The position numbers and the translations under genes were made by a program. The notes beneath the pieces are model-generated. The model was given only the letters and a program-made list of their open reading frames with translations. It was not told the origin of the DNA and did not search any database. 32,299 bases of DNA from Synergistaceae bacterium. GTDB taxonomy: Bacteria > Synergistota > Synergistia > Synergistales > Synergistaceae. This document shows positions 24,150 to 31,894 of the stretch, piece by piece. How positions within the stretch are numbered: position 1 is the stretch's first letter; each line of letters opens with the position of its first letter. The stretch spans positions 1-32,299 of the forward strand of contig JAIRKI010000094.1 of the NCBI GenBank assembly GCA_031260185.1. Direction: 5' to 3'.

Positions 24150-24330
24150 GTTTTTTATGTTTAATTTTGAAGACCTTGATTTTCGCGTTGATATTCTCAA
24201 TCAGAATATGCTCGCGAGAAATATGGCGGTTTTCACTCTTTCTGTGATATCATTGTGCCGTTGGATACGCGCGGGGATGTCCGCCGGTGAATTGCTCGAG
24301 AAGTTTGATAAGGAGAATGTACAGACGTGA
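24150..24330 (+). CDS. Small hypothetical ORF translationally coupled to ppk (start uncertain within ORF 24019-24330)
   Basis: C-terminal part MFNFEDLDFRVDILNQNMLARNMAVFTLSVISLCRWIRAGMSAGELLEKFDKENVQT; stop TGA overlaps ppk ATG (TGATG). Confidence 0.45.
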
Positions 24331-26450
24331 TGAACGGCGAAGCGGCGGAAGTTCCGCCGCAAGATAATCCTGAAAAGAGAAACGAGTACATAAATCGGGA
24401 ACTGAGCTGGGTGCGCTTCAACCGGAGAGTTCTCGACGAGGCGTTCGACAAGTCCAAACCGCTTTTGGAACGGGTGAGGTTTGCCGCGATTTTCGCGAAC
24501 AACCTCGACGAGTTTTTCATGATAAGGGTCTCCGGTCTGGTGCGGCAGCTCAAGAACGGGGTGGTTTCCCTGCCTCCGGACGGAATGACCCCGTTGGAAC
24601 AGCTCGTCGCCATTCGCAAGGCCATAGCGTCGGACGCAAAAAGATTGCTCGAGTGCTGGCACGGCGAACTTCAGCCGGAGTTGCGCGAGAACGGCATAGA
24701 AATACTGAATTTCAGGCAAATATCCGAAAAACAGGGACATTTTCTCGACCGGTATTTCAAAAACGAGATATTTCCGACGCTGACGCCGCTCGCGTTCGAT
24801 CCCGGACACCCTTTTCCGCATATCTCGAACCTCAGCCTGAGTTTCGCCCTCGCGCTCCGCGACGAAAAGGGGCACGAACGTTTCGCGAGGCTCAAAATAC
24901 CCGAGTCGTTCCCGAGGCTCTTTCAGATACCGCCCGAATCCGGAAGCAAAGATGACGGGATGGGATTGCGCGGTTCGCGGACCGCGACGTTCGTGTGGCT
25001 CGAGGATATCATAGAGGCAAACCTGAGCGCGCTGTTTCCCGGAATGACCATAGAGGGCGCCGTGTTGTTCCGCGTCACGAGGGACACCGATTTCGAGATA
25101 GAGTCGGACGAAGCCGAAGACCTGCTCCATTCCATACGCGAGAACGTGGAAAAACGGCGTTTCGGCCTCGCCGTCAGGCTCCAGACAGAGCGCGGGGTCC
25201 CGAAGCGCATAAGGGAAATTTTGACGCGCAATCTCGAATTGGACACATTTCAGGTATATTCCACTGAATTCCCCGTGGGGCTGTCGTCGCTGATGCAGCT
25301 TTACAGCCTCGACCGGCCCGAATTGAAATATCCGCCCTTCACGCCGGGAATGCGCCGCGAGACCCGCGACAGGCATAAGATATTCGACGCCGTCCGCGAG
25401 CGCGACATACTGCTCTATCACCCATACGACAGCTTCAAGCCGGTGGTCGATTTCATATGCGAATCCTCGCGTGATCCGGACGTGCTCGCGATAAAGCAGA
25501 CGCTTTACAGGGTGGGGGCAAATTCGCCGATAGTCGACGCGCTCAAGGATGCGTGTTCGAGGGGCAAGCAGGTGGCCGCCCTGGTGGAACTCAAGGCGCG
25601 GTTCGACGAGGAGAACAACATCGGCTGGGCGAGGGCGCTCGAAAGCGCGGGCGTCCACGTCGTCTACGGCCTGCCGGGACTTAAGACCCACGCCAAGATA
25701 TGCCTGGTCGTCAGGCGCGAGAAGGACGGAATCAGGCGTTACGTCCACCTCGGCACCGGAAACTACAACGCCGTCACCGCCGGCATCTACACCGATTTCG
25801 GGTTGTTCACCGCGAACCCCGACATAGGCGCCGACGCCTCCGACCTTTTCAACGTGCTCACCGGCTACTCGGCGCTGAAAGAATACCGTAAACTGCTGGT
25901 GGCCCCGCATACCCTCCGGCGCGAGATAATATCGAGGATAGACCGCGAGATAAGCCGTCACGCCGAGAGCGGGGACGGCCGCCTGATATTCAAGCTCAAC
26001 GCCGTCTCCGACAAGGAGAGCATCGACGCGCTCTACCGCGCTTCCCGCGCCGGAGTCGAAATCGACCTGCAGGTGCGCGGCATCTGCTGTCTCAGACCGG
26101 GCGTCGCGGGTTTGAGCGAGAACATCAGGGTATCGAGCATCGTCGGGCGTTTCCTCGAACACACTCGCGCTTTTTACTTTCGCAACGGCGGCGACGGGGA
26201 ACTGTACCTCGGCAGCGCCGACCTCATGACGCGCAATCTCGACCGCCGCGTCGAATGTCTCTTTCCCGTGGAGTCGCCCGAGATACGCCGTGAGATAATG
26301 GATTCGATACTGCCCGCGCATCTGGCCGACAATGTCCAGTGCCGCGAACTCGGCCCGGACGGAGCGTACGCGAAACTCGCCCCCGGCGACGCCCCCGCCG
26401 TCGATTCGCAGCGGGCGATGCTGGAACTGCGATGCGGTTTGAGGGAGTAA
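24330..26450 (+). CDS. ppk1: Polyphosphate kinase 1
   Basis: YINRELSWVRFNRRVLDEA, LLYHPYDSFKPVVDFI, IKQTLYRVGANSPIVDAL, KTHAKICLVVRREKDGIRRYVHLGTGNYN. Confidence 0.96.
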   Translation: MNGEAAEVPPQDNPEKRNEYINRELSWVRFNRRVLDEAFDKSKPLLERVRFAAIFANNLDEFFMIRVSGLVRQLKNGVVSLPPDGMTPLEQLVAIRKAIASDAKRLLECWHGELQPELRENGIEILNFRQISEKQGHFLDRYFKNEIFPTLTPLAFDPGHPFPHISNLSLSFALALRDEKGHERFARLKIPESFPRLFQIPPESGSKDDGMGLRGSRTATFVWLEDIIEANLSALFPGMTIEGAVLFRVTRDTDFEIESDEAEDLLHSIRENVEKRRFGLAVRLQTERGVPKRIREILTRNLELDTFQVYSTEFPVGLSSLMQLYSLDRPELKYPPFTPGMRRETRDRHKIFDAVRERDILLYHPYDSFKPVVDFICESSRDPDVLAIKQTLYRVGANSPIVDALKDACSRGKQVAALVELKARFDEENNIGWARALESAGVHVVYGLPGLKTHAKICLVVRREKDGIRRYVHLGTGNYNAVTAGIYTDFGLFTANPDIGADASDLFNVLTGYSALKEYRKLLVAPHTLRREIISRIDREISRHAESGDGRLIFKLNAVSDKESIDALYRASRAGVEIDLQVRGICCLRPGVAGLSENIRVSSIVGRFLEHTRAFYFRNGGDGELYLGSADLMTRNLDRRVECLFPVESPEIRREIMDSILPAHLADNVQCRELGPDGAYAKLAPGDAPAVDSQRAMLELRCGLRE

Positions 26451-26454
26451 CTTC

Positions 26455-27390
26455 ATGGGGGGGGGGGGGGGCGTTGTCGTCGCCATTCCATGCTACAACG
26501 AAGAGCGAACGATAGCCAAAGTCGTGTCGGATTTCAGGCGGGCGCTCCCCGAGGCGCGCGTCATAGTGTTTGACAACCGATCGACCGACATGAGCGCGAA
26601 GTTGGCGGTCATCGCGGGCGCTGAGGTAATTTACGTCGGCCGCCGGGGCAAGGGCGCCGTTTTGAGGCATCTTTTCCGTGAGATAGACGCGGACGTTTAC
26701 CTCACGGCTGACGGCGACGACGCGTGTCCGGCCGATACGGCGAAAGATCTGATTTCCCCGATATTGAACGGCGATGCGGATATGGCCATAGGCGACAGAA
26801 TATCCGGGGGCGGCTACAAGCGGGAGAACAGGAGAAAATTTCATAATTTCGGCAACGAGCTCGTCAGCGCGCTGGTCAACGGGTGTTTCGGCGCGGAGAT
26901 ACGCGACGTGATGTGCGGTTACAGGGCTTTCAGCAGGAGATTGGCCGTCAATGTGCCCATACTCTCGGACGGTTTCGAGGTGGAGACAGAGATGACCGTC
27001 AAGTGTCTCGAAAGAAAGCTCGCCATCGCGCAGATACCGATCCCCTTTCGCGACAGGACAGCCGGAACCCAGTCGAAACTCAGGACTTTTCGGGATGGAA
27101 TCAAAGTCTTGCATACCATTGCCAGTACGTTAAAAAATTATAAGCCGCTCGCTTTTTTCGGGACGTTCGGTCTTATGTTCGCGTGTTTCGGGCTTTTTTG
27201 CGGAGCGCCCATTATAATGGATTTTGTGAGAACCGGCGGCACGCCGCGCGTCCCTCTGTCCGTACTGGCCGCCGGATTGGAACTCGTCGCCATGACGTTT
27301 TTCATATGCGCGTTCATCCTGGATACGATGATCGCCTACGAAAGATCCCGAAACGAGATGGAGATACTCAAATTCGGCGATCGCGAATGA
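26455..27390 (+). CDS. Family 2 glycosyltransferase (polyprenyl-phosphate sugar transferase/DPM1-like, two C-terminal TM segments)
   Basis: VVVAIPCYNEERTIAKVV, VFDNRSTD, TADGDDACPAD, DVMCGYRAFSRRLA; C-terminal hydrophobic helices; start codon embedded in poly-G. Confidence 0.88.
   Translation: MGGGGGVVVAIPCYNEERTIAKVVSDFRRALPEARVIVFDNRSTDMSAKLAVIAGAEVIYVGRRGKGAVLRHLFREIDADVYLTADGDDACPADTAKDLISPILNGDADMAIGDRISGGGYKRENRRKFHNFGNELVSALVNGCFGAEIRDVMCGYRAFSRRLAVNVPILSDGFEVETEMTVKCLERKLAIAQIPIPFRDRTAGTQSKLRTFRDGIKVLHTIASTLKNYKPLAFFGTFGLMFACFGLFCGAPIIMDFVRTGGTPRVPLSVLAAGLELVAMTFFICAFILDTMIAYERSRNEMEILKFGDRE
26457..26471 (+). repeat. 15-nt poly(G) tract at the GT2 start codon
   Basis: Direct reading: CTTCAT followed by 15 G then CGTTGTCGTC. 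Confidence 0.95.
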
Positions 27391-27403
27391 GGGGGTAAAA
27401 ATC

Positions 27404-28654
27404 ATGCGTGAGATATTGGAATCGAAAAAAATCTTGGTTGCGCTACTTTTATGTTTTGTCCTGGTCGCCGTAACCGATGTCATAATTCCCGGAAAGACAT
27501 ATATGCCGGATGAGAACGCTTACTTGCGGCAGACAAAGAGCGTGGCTGAAACTGGTATTCTGGCTTTGGGAGAGCACAGGGCGGCGAATATGCCGATCCC
27601 CATGATAATTTACGCTCCTTTTTACAGATTGTTGGGAAATGAAAGCGTCTTTATAAAATTTGTCCGGGTGATTCAGGCTTTGGCGCATATAGTGACGGCG
27701 ATTGGCGCGGCGTCGATAGCTTTTTCCATCTTCAAGAACAGGGCGACGGCGATTATAACGTTGTTTGGAACGGCGATATATCCATCGTTATTGGCATATC
27801 AATGCCTGCTGTTGACCGAGACGTTATTCACGTGTTTTCTTGTTCTGGGCTTCGCTTTTCTTTACGCCTGGAGACCTGAACGCCCTGGTGCTTTCGTGCT
27901 GTCGGGGCTGTGTTTCATGTTGTCCCTTTATACCCGGCCCGTGATAACTATGCTGATGCCCCTGTTATTTCTCGCCAGAGGATTTGTAATTTTTGATCAT
28001 ACAGGGCGGCGCTTGAGATATTGCCTTTATTCCTGCATCATATTTCTCGTGTGCGCCGCGCCCTGGTGGATAAGGAACTGGAATATTTTCGGCGAGTTCG
28101 TTCCCTTTACGACATACGCGTCGAGAAATCTATACCTCGGAAATAATCGCGGTAATTTTACGGGGGGAGTGGAATGGAGTACTGACGCCCCGCCCGAGGA
28201 AGTGGCGGAATTGCTGTCCGCGGGGAGCGAGACGGAAATATCCCGGGCGTTTACCGCGAAGTCAATATCCTATATTCGCGAAAACAAAGTTGTGTTTCTC
28301 GCTAACGCATGGAAAAAATTCAAGCGATTCTGGAATTTTACCCTGAATACCGATTCTGCAAAACTTCCCAAGTATTTTCAGTATTATAACATAGCGTCCA
28401 TTTTGAGCTGGGGAACGGCGTTTTTTCTCGCTCTCGCCACCTTGTGGAGAAAACGTAAGGAGTGGTTCGTATTGCTGCCGCTCTTTTTACTCGTAGGTTA
28501 TTACGTATTTGTTCATGTCGTGACAATCGCTTCTTTGAGATACCGTCTTCCGATAGAACCATTTTTTGTCATCCTGGGGGCGGACAGCCTGCGCGTTATT
28601 TTCGAGCGTTCAGGCGTTGGAAAGTCGTCTGTTGAACAGGATAACGCGCGATAA
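27404..28654 (+). CDS. Polytopic GT-C/GT39-like membrane glycosyltransferase
   Basis: 416 aa, ~10 hydrophobic segments; early PDENAYLRQTKSVAETG loop with acidic residues typical of GT-C lumenal/periplasmic loop 1. Confidence 0.75.
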   Translation: MREILESKKILVALLLCFVLVAVTDVIIPGKTYMPDENAYLRQTKSVAETGILALGEHRAANMPIPMIIYAPFYRLLGNESVFIKFVRVIQALAHIVTAIGAASIAFSIFKNRATAIITLFGTAIYPSLLAYQCLLLTETLFTCFLVLGFAFLYAWRPERPGAFVLSGLCFMLSLYTRPVITMLMPLLFLARGFVIFDHTGRRLRYCLYSCIIFLVCAAPWWIRNWNIFGEFVPFTTYASRNLYLGNNRGNFTGGVEWSTDAPPEEVAELLSAGSETEISRAFTAKSISYIRENKVVFLANAWKKFKRFWNFTLNTDSAKLPKYFQYYNIASILSWGTAFFLALATLWRKRKEWFVLLPLFLLVGYYVFVHVVTIASLRYRLPIEPFFVILGADSLRVIFERSGVGKSSVEQDNAR

Positions 28655-29819
28655 CAAGTACGCCGGTTACGCCGTCGTGACCGACGGTCTTTGGAGAAAA
28701 AGCGTCAGCGTGGTGAGATCCTTGGGTAAAGCCGGTTATCACGTCGCCGTGATGGGCGATACTTACGCGACGACCGGGTTCTGGTCGAGGTATACGGCTT
28801 CGCGTCACGTATGCGCGTCGGCCTCCGACGACGTGGGCGCTTTTGGCCGCGGTCTGTTCGAACTGCTGGGGAGTTACGACATAAAACCGGTGCTGTTTCC
28901 TATGGAGGACGCGAGCATTGTTTGGTGTTCCGCTCATCGCGGGGAGATTCTGCCGTTAGCCGACATATTGTTGCCGCCGGATGATTCTTTGAGCCATGCC
29001 GAGAACAAAGCGGATACCATAAAACTTGCGGCAAATCTAGGCATACCTTGCCCGAAAACGTATTTCGCGCATAATCCTGAAGAAGCAGAACATTTCGCGG
29101 GTCTGTTTGTACGGAGAAGTTTCGTGGTGAAACCGTTCCATGGTTCCGGAGCAGTCGGTGTAAAATATTTGAATTCCGGGGACAAAATCGACTGGAACAC
29201 ATATTTCGTAGCGTATGGGCCTTGTCTGATACAGGAACGCATCCCGGAATCGGGAGAAGCTCTCGGGGTTTCGGTGCTGATGGATACTTGCGGCCGGCTT
29301 GCGGCAGCTTTTACCCACAAGAGGACGGAACAGTATCCGAATTCCGGCGGTGCAAGCACGCAGAGGATAAGTGCCCGAAACGACGAAGTCATGCGTCAAA
29401 GCGTCAAATTGCTCGAATCTCTCGGTTGGCGCGGGGTCGCTATGGTGGAATGGAAGAAGGAGCCTGTCAGCGGCAAATACCTTCTCATGGAGATAAATCC
29501 CCGTTTCTGGGGCAGTCTTGAACTGGCCGTCCGCTCGGGGGTCGATTTTCCGTTGTTATACGCGAGGGCCGCGCAAAAACTGGACACGGAACCGGCAAGC
29601 GAATATAAAACAGGCATCAAATGCCGCTGGCTGTTGCCGGGCGATATATTGAGGTACATCACAAAAAAAAACAGAGAAGGTATAGGGGATTTCATGCGCG
29701 GGATACTGAACGAGAGCGAGGAATGGGACGTCTCGGACAAAAGAATTTTTTTGTTTTCCATATTGTGTCAGGCATATCTCGCGTTGAACCCAAAATACTG
29801 GAAGTTCCTCAGGAGATGA
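28632..29819 (+). CDS. ATP-grasp domain protein (carboxylate-amine ligase-like)
   Basis: AVVTDGLWRKSVSVVRSLGKAGY, ENKADTIKLAANLGIPCPKTY, FVVKPFHGSGAVGV, LIQERIPESGEALGVS, LLMEINPRFWGSLELAV; probable TTG start at 28632, overlapping the GT-C 3' end. Confidence 0.82.
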   Translation: MNRITRDNKYAGYAVVTDGLWRKSVSVVRSLGKAGYHVAVMGDTYATTGFWSRYTASRHVCASASDDVGAFGRGLFELLGSYDIKPVLFPMEDASIVWCSAHRGEILPLADILLPPDDSLSHAENKADTIKLAANLGIPCPKTYFAHNPEEAEHFAGLFVRRSFVVKPFHGSGAVGVKYLNSGDKIDWNTYFVAYGPCLIQERIPESGEALGVSVLMDTCGRLAAAFTHKRTEQYPNSGGASTQRISARNDEVMRQSVKLLESLGWRGVAMVEWKKEPVSGKYLLMEINPRFWGSLELAVRSGVDFPLLYARAAQKLDTEPASEYKTGIKCRWLLPGDILRYITKKNREGIGDFMRGILNESEEWDVSDKRIFLFSILCQAYLALNPKYWKFLRR

Positions 29820-29826
29820 CTCTGCC

Positions 29827-30666
29827 GTGGCGAATATTTTTTCAGTCGATCTGGAGGATTGGTATCACGCGAATTATAACCGCGGCTCGGAAAGCGGCGT
29901 CGCGCGGGGCGAATCGATAATTCCACGGAATGTAATGAAAATCCTCGATCTGTTGGACGAAAATGGCTCTAAATGTACTTTTTTCGTGCTCGGGCAGGTA
30001 GCGGAAAAATTCAAGGACATATTGAGAGATATCGCAGCGAGAGGACACGAGATAGCCTCACACGGATTCGACCACAAGCTCGTATACAGCCAGACCGAGA
30101 AAGAATTCCGAGAGGATGTCCGCCGCGCTAAAGGCACGCTCGAAGAGATAACGCGAAAGGAGATAAAAGGTTACCGCGCCCCTTCGTGGTCTATAACGGC
30201 TCGTTCGCTATGGGCCTTGCCAATATTGCTGGAAGAGGGTTATAGATACGATTCGAGCATATTTCCCACGCAAAACTTCATGTACGGGATAAAAAACGCC
30301 CCCAGATTCGCGCATGTCCACAATCTCGCGGCCGGAAACTTACTTGAGGTACCTCCTTCCACCGTGAGGTTTTGCGGGACGAATATTCCATTCTCCGGTG
30401 GGTTTTATTTCAGGGTATGTCCTGAATTTATGATAAAGACATTCTCGCGTATCGTGAGCCGAAGCGGGTATCCGACGGTGTTTTACATTCATCCGAGGGA
30501 GATAGATACGCGCCAGCCACGGCTTGAACTGACTTTCAAGAACAAGTTTATTCATTACGCCGGAATTAAAAACTGCCTGAAAAAATTGACTTCCATCATG
30601 TCGGCTTTCCCGATGACATCGATTGAAATTTTTTATGGAAAATTTTTCCGTGAGGGCGTCTTATGA
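29827..30666 (+). CDS. Polysaccharide deacetylase, DUF3473/exosortase-cluster (TIGR03006-like) type
   Basis: NIFSVDLEDWYHANY, CTFFVLGQVAEKF, HEIASHGFDHKLVY, GYRAPSWSI, FYIHPREIDTRQPRLELTFKNKFIHYAG; GTG start. Confidence 0.85.
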   Translation: MANIFSVDLEDWYHANYNRGSESGVARGESIIPRNVMKILDLLDENGSKCTFFVLGQVAEKFKDILRDIAARGHEIASHGFDHKLVYSQTEKEFREDVRRAKGTLEEITRKEIKGYRAPSWSITARSLWALPILLEEGYRYDSSIFPTQNFMYGIKNAPRFAHVHNLAAGNLLEVPPSTVRFCGTNIPFSGGFYFRVCPEFMIKTFSRIVSRSGYPTVFYIHPREIDTRQPRLELTFKNKFIHYAGIKNCLKKLTSIMSAFPMTSIEIFYGKFFREGVL

Positions 30667-31505
30667 AAGACGCGAACATGATGAAATGCGCGGTGTGCGG
30701 CGGGGTTATGCCGAAAGATGAAGCGAGTTACTATTCTTGCGCCTCCTGTGGATATATGGCGTCCGACATGAGAGCGTCCGCCGGTTCCGAATCGGCGGAC
30801 GCTCTTGAATCGGTGCGGGTCGCCAACTTCGGCGATATATGCGGGGTATTGAAATCGCGGTATTCCCCCCCCCTGAAAAGTGTTTTGGACATTGGCTGCG
30901 CGGGAGGTTTGTTTTTGAAATTCGCCGCCGGTGAAGGTTTTGATTGCTTCGGTCTGGAACCGGAACCGGCTAAGGCGTCCTTGGCGCGTGAGCGCGGATG
31001 CGTTGTCGGGACTGGTTTCTTTCCCGATGCGGAGTGGCTCGGCGGGAAAAAGTTTGACGTAATTATTTTCAACGATTCCTTCGAGCACATCCCAAATCTG
31101 GCGGGCGTCATAAATGGGATAAAACGACACCTTAACGAAAACGGCGTCGCCGTAATCAATCTTCCGTCGAGCGGAGGCATAATATTCGCGGTAGCGTCGC
31201 TGCTGTCAAAATTTGGCGTATGGGGTCCTCTGCATCGTTTATGGCAGAGGGGCATCGTTTCTCCTCATCTGCACTACTTCAACCCGAAAAATCTGGAAAT
31301 CCTGTTCGCGCGAAACGGATTCAAAATGGACCTCGTTTTGCGCCTTAAATATTACTCACTGGATAGATTGTGGACAAGATGCCGTTACCATTCGTCCATT
31401 TTTGCATCCGTGATTTCATTTTTGGGACTCCTGTTGCTGTATCCTTTTTCAAGATGGAAGAGCGATGTATTCGCGGCGTTTTTCAGGAGAGATATGAAAA
31501 ACTGA
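30663..31505 (+). CDS. Class I SAM-dependent methyltransferase with N-terminal zinc ribbon
   Basis: CAVCGGVM...YYSCASCGYM zinc ribbon; VLDIGCAGGLFLKFAAGEGFDCFGLEP motif I; FNDSFEHIPNL; overlaps previous stop. Confidence 0.85.
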   Translation: MKDANMMKCAVCGGVMPKDEASYYSCASCGYMASDMRASAGSESADALESVRVANFGDICGVLKSRYSPPLKSVLDIGCAGGLFLKFAAGEGFDCFGLEPEPAKASLARERGCVVGTGFFPDAEWLGGKKFDVIIFNDSFEHIPNLAGVINGIKRHLNENGVAVINLPSSGGIIFAVASLLSKFGVWGPLHRLWQRGIVSPHLHYFNPKNLEILFARNGFKMDLVLRLKYYSLDRLWTRCRYHSSIFASVISFLGLLLLYPFSRWKSDVFAAFFRRDMKN

Positions 31506-31507
31506 GG

Positions 31508-31715
31508 TCCTCGCACCGGAGTGGTTATCCTGGATAACTGTTCCACGGACAGGAGCGCCGAACTTGCCGCCGAAGCGGAGGTTATTTACGTGGAGAGGCA
31601 GGGCAAGGACGCCGTTTTGAGATATGTTTTCAGGGAGATAATGGCGGACATCTACGTGACGGCTGACGGCGACGGCGTGTGTCCGGCCTGCGCCGAGAAA
31701 GATTTGATAATTCCG
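31508..31715 (+). pseudogene. Frameshifted partial copy of the family 2 glycosyltransferase (paralogue of 26455-27390)
   Basis: LDNCSTDRSAELAAEAEVIYVERQGKDAVLRYVFREIMADIYVTADGDGVCPACAEKDLI aligns with FDNRSTDMSAKLAVIAGAEVIYVGRRGKGAVLRHLFREIDADVYLTADGDDACPADTAKDLI. Confidence 0.85.
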
Positions 31716-31894
31716 TTATATTCGCGCGCGCCCTTTTTAAACCATGAGTACCCTTTATAAAACTTCCCCTCCGGAACATTTGGGAGCCCTGTTAAAACAG
31801 TGATATCATGATGTCTTTTTCTCAAAGATAAACAAATATCATTAATCCTGAAATTTTCAGGCCAAAAATACTGACTTACCACCAGAATTTTCAT
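31710..31894 (-). pseudogene. 3'-truncated WbuB/WcaI-like (GT4-type) glycosyltransferase, N-terminus only
   Basis: MKILVVSQYFWPENFRINDICLSLRKRHHDITVLTGLPNVPEGKFYKGYSWFKKGAREYNGI is a typical N-terminus; frame then enters antisense GT2 remnant; RBS GGGGAGAG before ATG at 31894. Confidence 0.75.

Follow-up and report, generated by a model that had tools for sequence, protein, structure and literature searches.

In Neisseria, contingency genes for lipooligosaccharide (LOS) carry intragenic poly-G tracts of 9-15 nucleotides in glycosyltransferase genes, and slippage by one base abolishes the protein (PMC5953494). For Synergistetes/Synergistota, a literature search on phase variation gave nothing on point. 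Here we describe a candidate for such a locus from an uncultured Synergistaceae metagenome-assembled genome (MAG; G000, 1.43 Mb, 73% complete), whose contig C83 was analysed in full (32,299 bp, hereafter the window). Behind the polyphosphate kinase gene ppk lie five genes encoding a family 2 glycosyltransferase (GT2), a GT-C-like membrane glycosyltransferase, an ATP-grasp ligase, a polysaccharide deacetylase and a methyltransferase, and the GT2 gene opens with a run of 15 guanines. We favour, with moderate confidence, the view that they form a phase-variable, recombining surface-glycan cassette in a variable locus at the 3' side of ppk. The cassette is real and rare, its parts are of known types in a new combination, it is probably phase-variable, and Synergistota would apparently be a new phylum for a poly-G switch. 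The named relatives closest to this genome are Synergistaceae MAGs, presumably of termite-gut origin, going by the literature and their isolate-style names.

A compact cassette with a homopolymer at its first codon

Five + strand open reading frames (ORFs) occupy 26455-31505, packed by overlaps or gaps of 7-13 nt, and the first begins 4 nt beyond the ppk stop (Table 1), just as a first-pass annotation of this DNA had described. How widely is this block shared? The search covered 188 Synergistota genomes and 80 GT2 relatives from other genomes. The complete gene order was found once more, in a congener (G001, 97% complete; hereafter the sister), on a 4,903-bp contig (L032) that begins at about codon 23 of GT2 and stops within the methyltransferase. 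Amino-acid identity between the two copies is 83% for GT2, 94% for the GT-C-like protein, 89% for the ATP-grasp ligase, 90% for the deacetylase and 84% for the methyltransferase. Such conservation of gene order in a second species, with proteins 83-94% identical, shows the block to be more than a chance arrangement. The co-occurrence check proposed with the first-pass annotation, run as a neighbourhood search, thus places the five genes together in a second genome but does not make them widespread, and on this single extra full copy the idea of a widespread five-gene system was rejected. GT2 and GT-C genes without the other three occur as a second copy in the sister and in congeners G003 and G040 (loci L025, L026 and L027). 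As a general rule, the pairing of GT2 with a membrane neighbour is weak: at 27 of 71 loci a same-strand neighbour has at least six predicted transmembrane (TM) segments, compared with 17% of ORFs overall.

Profile searches recovered the GT2, ATP-grasp, DUF3473/TIGR03006 and Methyltransf_23 families that had been named beforehand. GT2 scores 63.5 bits with Glycos_transf_2 and 207.9 bits with TIGR04182 (AglJ), under the cut-off of 325, and matches the DPM synthase structure 5mlz at E 1e-10. It shows the features of the DPM1-type GT2 superfamily, with a GT-A domain (PF00535) and a DxD motif (TADGDDACP), and two TM helices are predicted at its C-terminus. Its neighbour, earlier called a GT-C enzyme of PMT type, is a multi-TM protein whose PMT_2 match lies under the cut-off (23.9 against 26.1 bits; a homologue against PMT reaches 19.8). 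The GT-C-like family has five Synergistaceae members, the others 48-94% identical to the window protein, with an invariant PDE motif near the N-terminus. The ligase scores 41 bits with ATP-grasp_3, over the cut-off, and K167 and an EINP motif are invariant in the alignment; its AlphaFold2 (AF2) model (predicted local distance difference test, pLDDT, 76.5) matches the folds of 2pn1 (E 2e-17), the L-amino-acid ligase RizA and PurK. Since the same TTG is present at the sister locus, the TTG at 28632 is the likeliest start of this gene, which then overlaps the end of GT-C. The deacetylase scores 123 bits with DUF3473 and narrowly passes TIGR03006 (276.3 bits, cut-off 276.2), and its NodB-type metal and catalytic residues (D8, E10, D11, H79, H83, R117 and H222) are invariant in the alignment. 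The methyltransferase, whose start overlaps the deacetylase stop (ATGA), scores 85 bits with Methyltransf_23 and has two N-terminal CxxC pairs.

The G15 tract includes the G of the GT2 ATG and occupies codons 2-6 in frame. Tract lengths of 13, 14, 16 or 17 would yield products of 19-39 residues, so that this is a long in-frame homopolymer whose change in length shifts the frame early, as at a contingency locus. In four related loci (L025, L026, L027 and L035), M and five ordinary codons precede the same VVAIPCYNE motif. Because these relatives keep the same codon spacing, the assembled G15 is taken as the in-frame length.

Comparable tracts occur elsewhere in the genus. Tracts at contig ends were excluded from the counts as likely artefacts: in two MAGs the ends of L218, L224, L260, L266, L268 and L270 are GC-rich and of low complexity, with poly-G/C up to C70, and are probably products of sequencing or assembly. 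All four internal tracts of at least 12 nt in the window's own genome fall in glycosyltransferase or methyltransferase genes (GT2 on C83, methyltransferases on C32 and C40, GT4 on C42). If such genes made up 5-10% of the total, the probability of this outcome would be roughly 6e-6 to 1e-4. The 3' end of the GT4 gene is out of frame. Congener G009 has a G19 tract (contig C11, L187, 1189-1207), in frame, in the GT2 part of a methyltransferase-GT2 fusion behind ppk-CHAD, and a G17 tract (36-52) that puts the next methyltransferase out of frame; a run of 13 cytosines stands at the start of its WbuX-type N-acetyl sugar amidotransferase gene, and a further tract opens the gene for an outer-membrane-like TPR protein. 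In congener G002 a run of 15 cytosines falls where a methyltransferase gene encodes its zinc ribbon. Long tracts thus fall in surface genes throughout in G000, largely in G009 and partly in G002. The complete genome of G015 has tracts of 10-11 nt only, and tracts of this length may therefore be background. In our analysis, the kinds of gene affected, the tract lengths and the mixed frames follow the pattern of known contingency loci, which backs the earlier suggestion that poly-G is a plausible on/off gate. Slippage of G15 by one or two bases would abolish GT2 and so switch decoration, while the other operon genes may still be read.

Could this instead be an ordinary surface-glycan operon without phase variation, its G15 a chance or assembly feature that adds five glycines to no effect? 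The tract is known from a single assembly, the sister contig starts downstream of the tract position, and the contig-end artefacts in these MAGs imply that sequencing error might add Gs. A C9 tract in the methyltransferase (30865-30873), a possible second and weaker switch, is missing from the sister gene. Against this, G15 runs are expected in the window only about 4e-5 times by extrapolation of its own run-length decay and 4e-4 times by an independent and identically distributed estimate, the spacing to the conserved VVAIPCYNEE is exactly maintained, and long internal tracts concentrate in glycan genes of two to three species, with two of these genes out of frame. On balance we regard the absence of a switch as unlikely. 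Elsewhere in the window, a G9 tract (2175-2183) lies 8 nt upstream of an infB-like start codon (2192), near the expected ribosome-binding site. No Rfam elements were found in the window.

Table 1. Features of the window and the evidence for each (nucleotide positions on the contig)
Feature	Position	Strand	Basis or remark
ppk (polyphosphate kinase 1)	24327..26450	+	TIGR03705 859 bits; present across the genus, downstream genes variable
GT2, AglJ/DPM1-like polyprenyl-phosphate glycosyltransferase	26455..27390	+	PF00535, TIGR04182, PDB 5mlz
G15 homopolymer, GT2 codons 1-6, candidate phase-variation switch	26457..26471	+	sequence
GT-C-like multi-TM glycosyltransferase (PMT/ArnT-like)	27404..28654	+	weak PMT_2
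ATP-grasp carboxylate-amine ligase (COG3919-like)	28632..29819	+	ATP-grasp_3, invariant K and EINP motif
NodB-fold polysaccharide deacetylase with DUF3473 extension	29827..30666	+	PF01522 and PF11959
Class I S-adenosylmethionine (SAM) methyltransferase, N-terminal zinc ribbon, C-terminal hydrophobic segment	30663..31505	+	PF13489, sequence
GT2 relic (about codons 36-105)	about 31521..31730	+	DNA 86% identical to sister GT2, 73% to the window's own GT2
5' fragment, family 4 glycosyltransferase-like (MKILVVSQYFWPENF...), broken at the GT2-relic junction	31737..31894	-	translation, family call by eye

A mosaic GT2 and the site behind ppk

Comparison of the two cassettes reveals a step within GT2. 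Of the fourfold sites in codons 1-180, 32 of 58 differ between window and sister, whereas for codons 181-311 the figure is 9 of 54 (Fisher p 3e-5). Elsewhere in the cassette 22-27% of such sites differ, and no comparable step in divergence appears against outgroup GT2s. By this measure the window GT2 is a mosaic, with a 3' part close to the sister cassette and a divergent 5' part. A GT2 relic adjoins the 3' side of the methyltransferase (Table 1), and a second glycan locus seems to be joined to it at the contig end. The last gene of the contig (32004-32299, - strand) is a small multi-TM EamA/EmrE-like gene opposite to the operon. The cassette may have arrived or been reshuffled by homologous recombination inside GT2, leaving the relic past the methyltransferase: a single crossover, through integration of a circular cassette or unequal crossover with a tandem copy, would place a chimeric GT2 in front and a GT2 5' remnant behind. 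This presumed route, whose direction is likewise inferred, would also call for later deletions. A possible alternative is recombination between an old CHAD start and GT2, with the tract left at the joint.

The DNA behind ppk differs from one congener to the next. A CHAD gene directly follows ppk in G003, G005, G009 and G040 (the domain was confirmed in G003, the others being assigned by sequence resemblance). Past ppk-CHAD, G003 and G040 have GT2-GT-C, G005 has a membrane protein, and G009 has its methyltransferase-GT2 fusion further downstream. In G006, ppk is followed by GT-C (without GT2) and a sugar-nucleotide cluster; G002 has a convergent methyltransferase there. The window lacks CHAD after ppk and has GT2 in its position. 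On the other flank (24240-24400), all that survives of the gene found upstream of ppk in congeners is a C-terminal fragment, apparently after deletion at a short repeat, so that both ppk flanks are rearranged. The link to ppk is positional, because the DNA behind it varies per congener and consists mostly of surface-glycan genes, and ppk is probably a marker of a variable glycan insertion site and not part of the pathway. The coupling to ppk proposed earlier is weakened to that extent: the 4 nt gap is real, but relatives usually pair ppk with CHAD, followed by species-specific, mostly surface-glycan DNA. More tentatively, this genus could use the region 3' of ppk(-CHAD) as a variable expression site dedicated to surface-glycan cassettes, with both homologous recombination inside shared GT2 genes and poly-G phase variation of GT2 as sources of diversity. 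We put this extended version at somewhat less than an even chance; if true, it would be the first such system for Synergistota within the literature searched.

Functional coupling to polyphosphate, in which translation of the operon follows ppk and the cell tunes its glycan decoration along with polyphosphate synthesis during stress, appears improbable. Besides the narrow gap, G004 has an ATG at equal distance after ppk, and a terminator-like site between ppk and GT2 was looked for and none found. However, in congeners ppk precedes CHAD and then differing genes, or directly opposite-strand genes, and the full cassette of the sister sits on a separate contig, in a genome that gave only a distant ppk.

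A proposed order of reactions

What might such a cassette make? In the phase-variable cassette proposed here, GT2 would make a polyprenyl-phosphate sugar, which the GT-C-like enzyme would move onto a glycan on the membrane's outer side. Once the DUF3473 deacetylase had stripped an N-acetyl group, the ATP-grasp ligase would acylate the exposed amine with a carboxylic acid, probably an amino acid, and the methyltransferase would cap a residue. The order of deacetylation then ligation, with ATP-grasp acylating the freed amine on the glycan, is a reasonable proposal. The findings support both the glycan-modification operon and the donor-maker and user pair, DPM1-like GT2 with the GT-C-like protein, of the first-pass annotation, and no named system with these five parts was found, in line with its claim. 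The aminoacyl or peptidyl modification that it suggested stays a candidate reading, with which the recurrence of such ATP-grasp enzymes beside sugar deacetylases would be consistent.

The pairing of deacetylase and ligase recurs more widely than the whole cassette. Among the Synergistota genomes the ATP-grasp and DUF3473 deacetylase pair is present in the window genome, the sister and, remotely (26% and 34% identity), G059, in which the two genes overlap and the next two look like GT4. Homologues of the ligase, which we take to be COG3919-like, also lie near NodB-type deacetylases in Natribaculum (in the order GT2-deacetylase-PHP-ATP-grasp), N. bangense, Halorussus and Haloprofundus, and in G105 one lies near a DUF2334 deacetylase. 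Plasmids of Priestia megaterium and Cytobacillus (L281 and L282) have consecutive genes for a PIG-L deacetylase, a GT4, a COG3919-like ATP-grasp enzyme and a kinase-like protein, in what looks like an uncharacterised amino-sugar conjugate pathway, and this ATP-grasp gene is found on 37 Priestia plasmid records. A literature search on ATP-grasp with polysaccharide deacetylases found nothing on point.

These PIG-L-GT4-ATP-grasp units, reminiscent of BshA/BshB plus a ligase, suggest a soluble product. Deacetylase and ATP-grasp (with or without the methyltransferase) would then yield a small conjugate of an amino sugar along the lines of bacillithiol or mycothiol synthesis (N-acetylglucosamine deacetylated, then joined to an amino acid), and only GT2 and GT-C would work in the envelope. 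We hold this to be quite unlikely, as the deacetylase here belongs to a type, NodB/DUF3473, that serves for polysaccharides, the genes abut or overlap those for the GT2 and GT-C membrane enzymes, and other Synergistota homologues sit among glycosyltransferases.

Several observations weigh against a phase-variable surface-glycan cassette, in addition to the limits of the single assembly. The GT-C assignment is weak, with a sub-cut-off Pfam score, no PDB match and a poor model (pLDDT 51). The cassette has no polymerase or flippase, and a glycan backbone must come from elsewhere. Nine of 15 inspected plasmid loci with the ATP-grasp homologue have no annotated deacetylase nearby, and several internal tracts of G002 lie in unrelated genes or non-coding DNA.

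Comparison with known systems

If the phase-variable cassette is borne out, gut bacteria of Synergistota, where phase variation has hardly been looked at in the literature searched, would share the on/off surface-sugar trick of mucosal pathogens, presumably as a counter to phages or to the defences of a host. COG3919-like ATP-grasp enzymes form a large family for which that literature nowhere states a substrate, and their repeated occurrence beside sugar deacetylases would also suggest an assignment that can be tested.

The window resembles the Neisseria lgt and Campylobacter phase-variable LOS and capsule genes in its intragenic poly-G within a glycosyltransferase gene. It differs in belonging to another phylum and an uncultured organism, in placing the tract directly at the start codon, and in being a candidate switch. 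With the AglJ/DPM1-type GT2 systems and their GT-C partners (S-layer N-glycosylation, GtrB with GtrA and GT-C, ArnC/ArnT) it shares a GT2 closest to TIGR04182 and a GT-C-like neighbour, whereas that GT2 falls under the AglJ cut-off, a GtrA flippase is lacking and the GT-C-like family was seen here only in Synergistaceae. The deacetylase resembles the XrtA-associated TIGR03006 enzymes in its borderline score and DUF3473 extension. However, no exosortase is detectable in the window genome or the sister (PF09721 is absent from both), and an XrtA/exosortase system was rejected; the earlier label "exosortase-cluster-type" is misleading. The closest likeness for the ligase is with the COG3919-like ATP-grasp enzymes of haloarchaeal, Bacilli and proteobacterial glycan loci: their gene order differs from that of the window, but they are 25-35% identical over most of their length and many have deacetylase or glycosyltransferase neighbours.

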